From Diadema setosum (taxonomy: Eukaryota; Echinodermata; Echinoidea; Diadematoida; Diadematidae), in assembly GCF_964275005.1 (NCBI RefSeq), contig NC_092689.1, forward strand, positions 4,307,674 to 4,371,673: a stretch of DNA of 64,000 bases, given 5' to 3'. Positions within the stretch are counted from its first letter, which is position 1; each line of letters begins with the position of its first letter. Below the pieces are notes generated by a model that was not told the origin of the DNA, searched no databases, and saw only the letters and a program-made list of their open reading frames with translations. The translations under genes were made by a program, and so were the position numbers. Shown in pieces: positions 24,401 through 31,382 of the stretch.

Positions 24401-27400
24401 AATGGCACCACCAGAATTAGAATAATAAAGAAGGAAATAAAATTATTACATAGCACTGACGATGTACATGCAATTTGTCATGTTTGAGCTTGCTTTATAA
24501 TCGTATGCTCAAGACGTCCTGAGGTTACACAGTCACAATGAACTGGGTGAAATAAAAAAAAAAAAAGTTTACTTATACCAGCAGTGAAGACAGCATATTG
24601 ATGAGTGAAGTGATCTTGTTCAAACTTGAGTTTCTAAACTGTGTAAGTAGGTTATATTGCCTGTTGGATTGATCTCCCCACCCCCCCCCCCCCCCACAAA
24701 AACAGTGGTGAACAGTGAACATGAATAATAGCAACAGAGTAGTGAGGAGAGCTTCTTACCTGCATAGTTTTTTTTTCTTATTTCTGTTCCAGGTGGGCAA
24801 ATCCTGTGCAGGCCGGGGCTTTCGCTGCAGGAATCAGTCACACCATCATTTGCTACGTGTACAAAGTGCTACCAGATATCCTTTTGCAAGTGCAGCAATG
24901 AATGAAAGAATAGTACAGAGTGTGATTTTACCCTTTCCTAATTCAGAGTTGTGTGAATGGAATGTCCCAACATGGGAAAAACTAGTCAGTTTGTTTTGTT
25001 TTGCCCTTTTTTTTTGTGGGGGGGGGGGAGGGGACACTTTTTAAAAAAATCAGATTTTAGGCTGACTTGGACAGTGTTGATGAAAGTTATACCCATTTAT
25101 AAAGCATGAGAATATCCTCTCTGTTGATATCACTCAGGTACTTGGAATTGGCATACTTGATTATGTGACACTGATACTGCGAGAATAGTTGGCCCCAATC
25201 ATCTTTAATGAATAATGTGGCTTCTTTTGCAGTTTCTTGTAAATAGTTTCTTCACAACTCATCTTAACCCATTGAGGACGAGTCCAGAGTTTACTCAGGC
25301 AGGTGTCTATGGGAAATGTGTGTTGTAGCAAAATCAGTCTGTCCTCAATGAAGTAAGATATTTTCATGGACAGAGGGATTTGGGTTTAATCAGAGACACC
25401 TGATATAAATTCCCTTTGTCAAAATCTTGGACAAATATAAACATCTTGGTGAATTGGTAATCAGAGCAAGGTTTGTGCTACACAGCCTCTGGATGTTGAT
25501 TTTTGTTATAAAAGCCCAAATTTGACACTGATAACATTTCCTGTGTGACAGAAATTAGTTAATTGGTCCCACAACCCCTTACCAGGTCAAAGTTCACTTC
25601 CTTGACATACTATGATGTCCACTGCTCTGGCCACACACGGTCAATCTTCAGCTCCTCATCCTCCTCCCAGCCCTGCTGGTCATGCTGACCCTCTACTACC
25701 GCCTACTGACCGAGGACCCAGGCACCTGCAAGGTCTCCCAGACCGCCGCCACTTCAGGGGGTGGACCTGGGGCAGTGCTGACCATCAATGATGTGGCCAA
25801 GGGACAATGCAAAGCGGAAGCCTTCTGCGTGACGTGTGAAGTAAGCATAAGATTTCAGATTTTTCTCCCACTCCTCCAGCTCTTTCAAAGCAGAGGCACA
25901 AGCTATTGTTGGAAAGAAAAATACATGCTTGTTTGTTATTTGTTTCTCTTTTTATACAAGTGTACATGTGTTTGCGTATGTATATGTTTGCATTGAACAT
26001 ATCTCTCTCTTCTTTTTTTTAAATTTGCATATAAGGTAGTCTTTTGGATGTATCCAACGTCAGTGATAACTAATCAGAGGTCAGGTTATTCCATGAATGT
26101 AAATACAAATGTTTCAATAAAACTCTCATTACACAAGTAATATATCATCATCATACTTTCCATTATGCAATAGAAGTTAGTATAGTCTTGTCCAGTGTTT
26201 TGTTTCTCTTGTGATGATTCTATCATTTCTGTCTGACAAACAAGGATGTGACATGCTTTCATCAAGAGATGCCATGCTGATGTACACTACACTGTTGCTT
26301 TAGTCCATTGTTAGTTGAGCATACATTTGCGGCTAGGAGAAATTGGTGTTCATTAAATGCCATCCAGTCTACTACAAACTTGTTACATTACTCTTCCTAC
26401 ATAGCTATTGTATGTACAGACACGTACATACAGAATGGAAAAAGAGATGAGGATGTAATATGTGTTTGCATACAAATATATTGCCTGTAAAGCAGAGAAT
26501 CATATCTAAAACTGCTAATTGTATATAGAGCTATTCATTGTACAGCACCAGTGTACATACAGGAACTTGTAGAGTTAAAAACATCATTTCAAACATTTTA
26601 TCATCTTCGAAGTTCACGGGATCAAACATTATTGAAATATCCATCGGGGAAATCAAAAGTTACTCTTGGTGACAGGGCATTTTTGTACGCTGCACCAAAA
26701 TTATGGAATAATCTCCCTTTGTTTGTAAGACAAGCAGTTACAATTAATGAGTTTAGGGTCAGGTTAAAAAGTCATCTCTTGAAGTAATGTATTTTCTGTT
26801 TGAATTTTTTTTTGTATGCATGTCATTTTGTAATGCGCAGTAGAGTATATTATTATAGTAGCTGCACAATATAAATGCCCTTTTATTATTATATATATAT
26901 ATATATATATATATATATATATATATATATATATATATATATATATATATATATATGCAGGGCTCAACACTTACATTTTTCTCTGGTGGCCCATTCAGGC
27001 CTCTAAAATCTTGAAATCTGAAATTTTGTTGGCAGGAAAAAAAAAAGAAGTAGTGGATAGAAATAAAAGCACCAGGCCGCCAAAAGATTACCATTTTGGA
27101 AGTTTGGTGGCCTCGGGCCATCGCTAATGCCGAACCCTGATATATCTCAGTGCAATCCTATCCTGTATCATTGTTGCATCGGCAGCTGAGTGCTTAATGG
27201 GCGTGTGCATGGCAGCATGGTTTGCAGTTTGGTTTATCATGTTTTAAGTGCAGAGCTGCCAGATGGTATTTGTTTATGACAGTCAGTATCGTTTTCTTTG
27301 TGAAAGATAGTGCAATATTTTTCTAATGATTTCTTTTCTTACATTGATTTAGCGTGCTTAGAATGTGCAAGTTTTCAGTTCTTCAAGCAAAATATGTAGT

Positions 27401-31382: not shown

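Follow-up and report, generated by a model that had tools for sequence, protein, structure and literature searches.

Two homologous last exons encoding DHHC catalytic halves in an ankyrin-repeat S-acyltransferase gene of sea urchins, a probable case of alternative splicing

Results

Organisation of the gene

In the 64-kb stretch of Diadema setosum DNA analysed here (the window, C5:4307674-4371673), a gene for an ankyrin-repeat DHHC enzyme occupies positions 15416-31382 of the + strand. It is made up of eight exons common to both forms and an alternative last exon, A or B. The shared exons, coding for ankyrin repeats and the initial membrane helices, were delimited by tblastn with the Diadema antillarum protein P0001 as a guide. 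The features of the gene are as follows.

15416..15584, + strand: exon 1 (coding part, MSDFAPFAS...), from tblastn with D. antillarum P0001 at 96% identity; donor AAG/GTTTGT
19783..20029, + strand: exon 2, ankyrin repeats (tblastn, splice sites)
21155..21214, + strand: exon 3, ankyrin repeats (tblastn, splice sites)
21986..22058, + strand: exon 4, ankyrin repeats (tblastn, splice sites)
22862..23040, + strand: exon 5, ankyrin repeats (tblastn, splice sites)
23502..23741, + strand: exon 6, end of the ankyrin repeats and first predicted membrane helices (tblastn; helices from the Strongylocentrotus purpuratus models)
24793..24875, + strand: exon 7, encoding a segment of a long predicted membrane helix (tblastn; helix 327-380 in the S. 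purpuratus models)
24876..25622, + strand: intron 7, U12-like, with AT-AC ends (splice supported by D. antillarum P0001)
25623..25840, + strand: exon 8, shared, with a membrane helix, the DPG motif and the first two zinc-finger cysteines (CVTCE) (tblastn; phase-0 donor)
27901..28401, + strand: alternative last exon A, 166 aa and stop, with HCx2Cx2Cx4-DHHC-QF, two predicted membrane helices and TTFE (tblastn, PF01529; isoform X1 type)
29175..29180, + strand: AATAAA, some 770 nt past the stop of exon A and a candidate for its poly(A) signal (weak evidence)
30903..31382, + strand: alternative last exon B, 159 aa and stop, with HCx2Cx2Cx4-DHHC-LF, two predicted membrane helices and TTAQE (tblastn, PF01529; isoform X2 type)
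32196..32201, + strand: ATTAAA, some 810 nt past the stop of exon B and a candidate for its poly(A) signal (weak evidence)

Joined, exons 1-8 make up 1269 bases in frame, and the protein part that they encode is 97.6% identical to the D. antillarum protein (413/423). With either last exon the complete frame is open, giving an A form of 589 aa and a B form of 582 aa. An Ank_2 match (119.7 bits) and a DHHC domain lie in one frame, which places the product among the ankyrin-repeat DHHC enzymes. The DPG motif is located in shared exon 8, TTFE in A and TTAQE, one residue longer, in B, and relatives vary at this last motif too; DPG and TTxE are motifs of DHHC S-acyltransferases.

Except for intron 7, the introns among the shared exons (six of the seven) are of the GT-AG type. 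Intron 7 has a U12-like donor, ATATCCTT, a branch-like sequence, TTCCTTGAC, and a terminal AC, with donor and branch assigned by the U12 consensus. The start of exon 8 at 25623 is valid only with an AT-AC intron 7, and the D. antillarum protein agrees with it. A GT-AG splice for this intron (ILLQ/LLILL) was rejected because the D. antillarum protein shows AT-AC; gene finders that assume GT-AG introns will misread the join of exons 7 and 8. At its 3' end, exon 8 reads GTG ACG TGT GAA / GTAAGC, ending in phase 0 right after CVTCE, as an earlier note on this DNA had described from the sequence.

Two homologous last exons

Exon A starts at 27901 after CTCAG and ends with TGA at 28399-28401, and exon B starts at 30903 after AATTAG and ends with TAG at 31380-31382. 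Both have AG acceptors and open in phase 0, each with its own stop, and both restore the C-x2-C-x9-HC-x2-C-x2-C-x4-DHHC-x5-C spacing; on these points the earlier description was borne out, and its count of 27 matches in the first 46 residues proved exact. The regions further downstream differ, as it had also said, with TTFE in A against TTAQE in B, and over the whole tails 57-60 of 158 aligned residues are identical depending on the alignment (60/158 = 38%). As homologous neighbouring exons with one phase, one upstream donor and separate stops, A and B constitute tandem terminal exons.

The exon junction divides the first zinc-binding group, whose initial two cysteines lie in exon 8, and by the pairing of zinc ligands each cassette must supply the partners of these cysteines. 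The zinc and catalytic residues are intact in both exons and invariant across 23 aligned relatives. Taken alone, exon A scores 86.2 bits and exon B 93.9 bits against PF01529 (cut-off, 28.7), and the whole forms score 93.9 bits (A) and 102.4 bits (B), as composites that lack exon 1 and carry the GT-AG variant of intron 7, which leaves exons A and B unaffected. In six frames of the whole window, the pattern HC-x2-C-x2-C-x4-D[HQ]HC-x5-C occurs in exons A and B only. Moreover, the codon score, based on the usage in the shared exons, is 0.386 in the coding frame of exon A versus 0.048 and 0.148 in the other two, and 0.432 in that of exon B versus -0.007 and 0.220.

Search for other copies of the shared exons

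Independent 5' exons for the exon at 30903, which the earlier note had named as evidence that would overturn its reading, were looked for in the genome (912,680,840 bases, 102 contigs). In a search with the full D. antillarum protein, residues 242-324 and 349-425, the membrane part, are matched only at this locus among the matches listed, and the matches listed elsewhere cover the ankyrin part of the query only, at no more than 41% identity. The search scored 74 of its 534 candidates and did not recover exons 3, 4 and 7 of the gene itself (20-28 residues), so that short exons can escape it; within that scope, no alternative group of long 5' exons was found for B. Between 25501 and 31000, CxxCE followed by GT occurs at the exon 8 donor only. 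In addition, the genome holds at least 23 PF01529 matches, two of which are exons A and B, and among the 23 listed no other is close to the A or B tail over its length.

The same pair of tails in other sea urchins

A search over 5.8 billion proteins returned 21 proteins. Two of them are S. purpuratus isoforms, X1 with an A tail and X2 with a B tail, which are identical at 416/419 positions before the junction and at 55/161 after it. The same two tails are thus present in gene-model isoforms of a related urchin, which supports the earlier note's suggestion that a single locus could combine one ankyrin half with either of two catalytic halves. Three residues of the shared part and the product names distinguish the S. 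purpuratus isoforms from each other, so that they may come from different annotation releases. The A tail of the window matches S. purpuratus X1 at 95/165 positions and X2 at 67/162, and the B tail matches X2 at 84/156 and X1 at 62/157. Lytechinus variegatus isoform X1 is of the A type, and L. pictus isoform X2 is of the B type.

The D. antillarum protein has an A tail, as does one further unnamed protein among the 21; for D. antillarum, only the A type and no B-tailed protein was found among the 21 proteins or the best 120 of 608. P0006 is an A-type frame of 580 aa on a contig of 4,478 bases, as a spliced transcript would give; exons 1 to A cover 13 kb in Diadema, and with introns as large as these the genomic locus would not fit on the contig. 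Outside the echinoids, the proteins from Amphiura, Patiria, Asterias and Apostichopus have DHHC-LF in all four cases, and two of these four bear isoform names, so that other isoforms may exist. The nearest animal relatives, among the best 120 of 608, bear mixed names (AKR1, ZDHHC13, S-acyltransferase 23/24 and shark si:ch211-223a10.1), with none named ZDHHC17 in that set. Sharks and rays retain relatives (P0028-P0035), some of which are named si:ch211-223a10.1.

The enzymes of the AKR1/HIP14 type have six membrane helices. The S. purpuratus X1 and X2 models from AlphaFold (mean pLDDT, 82.2 and 83.8) resemble each other as far as the final stretch and show ankyrin repeats followed by helices at 268-291, 293-312, 327/328-380 (which could hold two), 455-483 and 501-529, the last two of which come from the swapped exon. 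The Foldseek and VIA match lists were filled with ankyrin proteins, so these searches did not probe the fold of the DHHC half.

Age of the duplication

A tree was built from 25 DHHC halves (P0010 of 26 was left out), with support given as ultrafast bootstrap/SH-aLRT. The A tails form one clade (100/100) and the B tails another (97/92), the two are joined with 95/95, and each unites Diadema with Strongylocentrotus/Lytechinus. Forcing the A and B tails of Diadema together costs 74.7 log units and is rejected (p-AU 2.3e-7). From the separate clades and this rejection it follows that the duplication is older than the split between Diadema and Strongylocentrotus/Lytechinus. If this split is the base of Euechinoidea, as we assume from the placement of Diadema in Aulodonta and of Strongylocentrotus/Lytechinus in Carinacea, both tails appear, from these sequences, to have been retained since about the Permian-Triassic boundary.

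Four placements of the duplication before the echinoids gave p-AU values of 0.058, 0.059, 0.106 and 0.078, so these tests disfavour such an earlier origin but do not reject it. An origin within the echinoids is indicated by the 95/95 support for A+B, to which a long-branch warning applies, and by the finding of A tails nowhere else: a search with 120 candidates gave the query and three proteins, all of the A clade, and no A tail outside it. The B row of the window was flagged as a long branch (0.64), the sole end branch so flagged, and the tool warns that long branches may be meeting.

The stem of A is longer than that of B (1.14 vs 0.45). Residues 25 (Q vs L) and 97 (G vs W) of A are unlike all ten outgroup rows, as is residue 27 of B. 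The window tails match Patiria, Amphiura and P0007 at 59, 55 and 61 positions for A and at 57, 53 and 62 for B. The stem length and the two A residues are a weak indication that A may be the more derived copy, whereas the overall match of A and B to these outgroups is about equal.

Discussion

Proposed explanation and alternatives

We propose that this locus is very probably one gene for an ankyrin-repeat DHHC S-acyltransferase, in which the terminal exon underwent tandem duplication before Diadema parted from Strongylocentrotus/Lytechinus, and whose transcripts are spliced alternatively to A or B. The 5' splice site of exon 8 would either join exon A, followed by polyadenylation after A, or be spliced past A to exon B, the latter join being one that we infer for Diadema. 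Every transcript would thus keep the ankyrin repeats, the first membrane helices, DPG and the first two zinc-binding cysteines, and the remainder of the zinc fingers, the DHHC active site, a pair of membrane helices and the tail would come from A or B. The choice in Diadema would be made at the RNA level, and both enzymes would be active, with differing acyl specificity, partner specificity or both.

One alternative, which we consider unlikely, is that Diadema makes isoform A only and that exon B, a relic of the duplication, is silent or decaying. The A-type protein alone was seen in D. antillarum (21 proteins; best 120 of 608), and the long end branch of the B row of the window (0.64) would fit such a decay; however, exon B is open over 159 codons, has lost none of the zinc and catalytic residues, is preceded by an in-phase AG acceptor, and scores above A against PF01529 (93.9 vs 86.2 bits). 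Its match to the S. purpuratus B tail (84/156) is near that of A to its own counterpart (95/165), and the annotation of two other urchins includes isoforms with a B tail.

Still less probable is a separate adjacent gene to which exon B would belong, with its own promoter and 5' exons. Although B begins 2.5 kb past the stop of A and has its own stop and downstream region, it encodes neither the first membrane helices nor the initial pair of zinc cysteines, the genome matches listed (74/534 scored) include the long shared exons at this locus only, and no other CxxCE/GT donor exists between 25501 and 31000. In S. purpuratus, moreover, X2 has the B tail on the shared half. Haplotype mis-joins can create tandem duplications, yet an exon pair falsely duplicated in the assembly is scarcely credible, since the 38% protein identity of A and B is far past allelic difference and both have orthologues in other urchins. 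A recent duplication or haplotype error is ruled out by the 38% tail identity together with the separate clades.

In DHHC enzymes, the separate roles of substrate recruitment and catalytic core are hard to test, as both usually vary together. The urchin gene would be an evolved domain swap within one gene, with the junction inside the first zinc finger, and comparing its isoforms would offer a natural test of which property the catalytic half sets by itself, whether acyl chain, partner, place or rate.

A possible difference in acyl-chain preference

At 15 tail positions, five A rows and three B rows are fixed for different residues. In human DHHC20, Tyr181 lies 25 residues past the catalytic Cys156, and the Y181A enzyme accepts C16 and C18 equally, according to PMC9105814. 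By residue counting, the position 25 residues past the catalytic cysteine is Met in 5/5 A tails and Ala in 3/3 B tails. Three of the four alignments shown to solved enzymes keep this register without a gap, but the HMMER alignment to DHHC20 itself has a one-residue gap that would pair Tyr181 with a His common to A and B. Other relatives have A, S, C, M, L, V or D at the Tyr181 position. The Met/Ala difference at the acyl-length gate of DHHC20 suggests that the two forms may have different lipid preferences. Both forms have Phe at the position of DHHC20 Val185, which may limit the chain length or blunt the effect of Met/Ala.

A lipid switch controlled by splicing, in which one scaffold would be joined either to an A half (Met, shorter acyl) or to a B half (Ala, longer acyl, e.g. 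C18), is accordingly conceivable but speculative. If true, the same bound substrates would get different fatty acids by tissue or stage.

Relation to known systems

Yeast AKR1, ZDHHC17/HIP14 and ZDHHC13/HIP14L are the ankyrin-repeat DHHC enzymes with which the gene was compared. The S. purpuratus and Lytechinus models (palmitoyltransferase AKR1 isoform X2; probable protein S-acyltransferase 23 isoform X1; LOC129281433 isoform X2) are orthologous, with the same two tail types on one shared half, and are named by similarity only. After DHHC, the solved ZDHHC9, ZDHHC5 and ZDHHC20 have PW, in contrast to LF or QF in the urchin forms.

In the Drosophila gene pip, the alternative terminal exons have common 5' exons. 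The enzyme gene of the urchin also has homologous last exons, two here versus eight clusters in pip, a sulfotransferase gene of another enzyme class, whose terminal exons are described in PMC9013439 as homologous and mutually exclusive, and filed there under UTR duplications. For humans, PMC9741552 reports 236 tandem duplicated exon substitutions, 77 of them C-terminal, and these C-terminal events resemble the urchin case in that one homologous C-terminal stretch is swapped for another. Ligand-binding residues tend to lie outside the swapped human regions (which take in 10.7% of them vs 14% of residues, as given there), unlike the urchin gene, whose swap includes the catalytic cysteine and most of the zinc ligands. 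The main text of that paper has no mention of ZDHHC.

Tandem terminal exons are thus a known device, and a swap of the whole DHHC catalytic core was not found described within a limited search. The earlier note, which knew of no family member with this layout, agrees with the literature covered on DHHC enzymes and sea urchin, in which no paper on the exon pair was found (a limited search with few subscription journals), but not with the gene models, since public models of S. purpuratus already include both proteins and the pair is implicit in them. The urchin gene would add an enzyme class to the tandem terminal exons, with the catalytic core swapped rather than the tail.

Other elements around the gene

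Intron 1 contains, at 17415-18695 on the - strand, a retrotransposon reverse-transcriptase frame (RVT_1, E 1.1e-32), and the frame beside it at 16748-17446 has no Pfam match. Several open frames of 100-170 aa that resemble scattered exons lie at 46411-58407 on the - strand, and the four of them that were tested gave no Pfam match (4/4). Positions 15000-36000 gave no Rfam match above the cut-offs.

At 30530-30733, 170 bases 5' of exon B, is a 204-base array of 51 TAAA units, which yields many sense-strand AATAAA hexamers just upstream of this exon. Between A and B, positions 29523-29864 form a near-perfect inverted repeat of 342 bases with arms that are 94-96% complementary. It is probably a foldback element or transposon, and it could possibly form a hairpin in the pre-mRNA, with a part in splicing control, when exon A is skipped.
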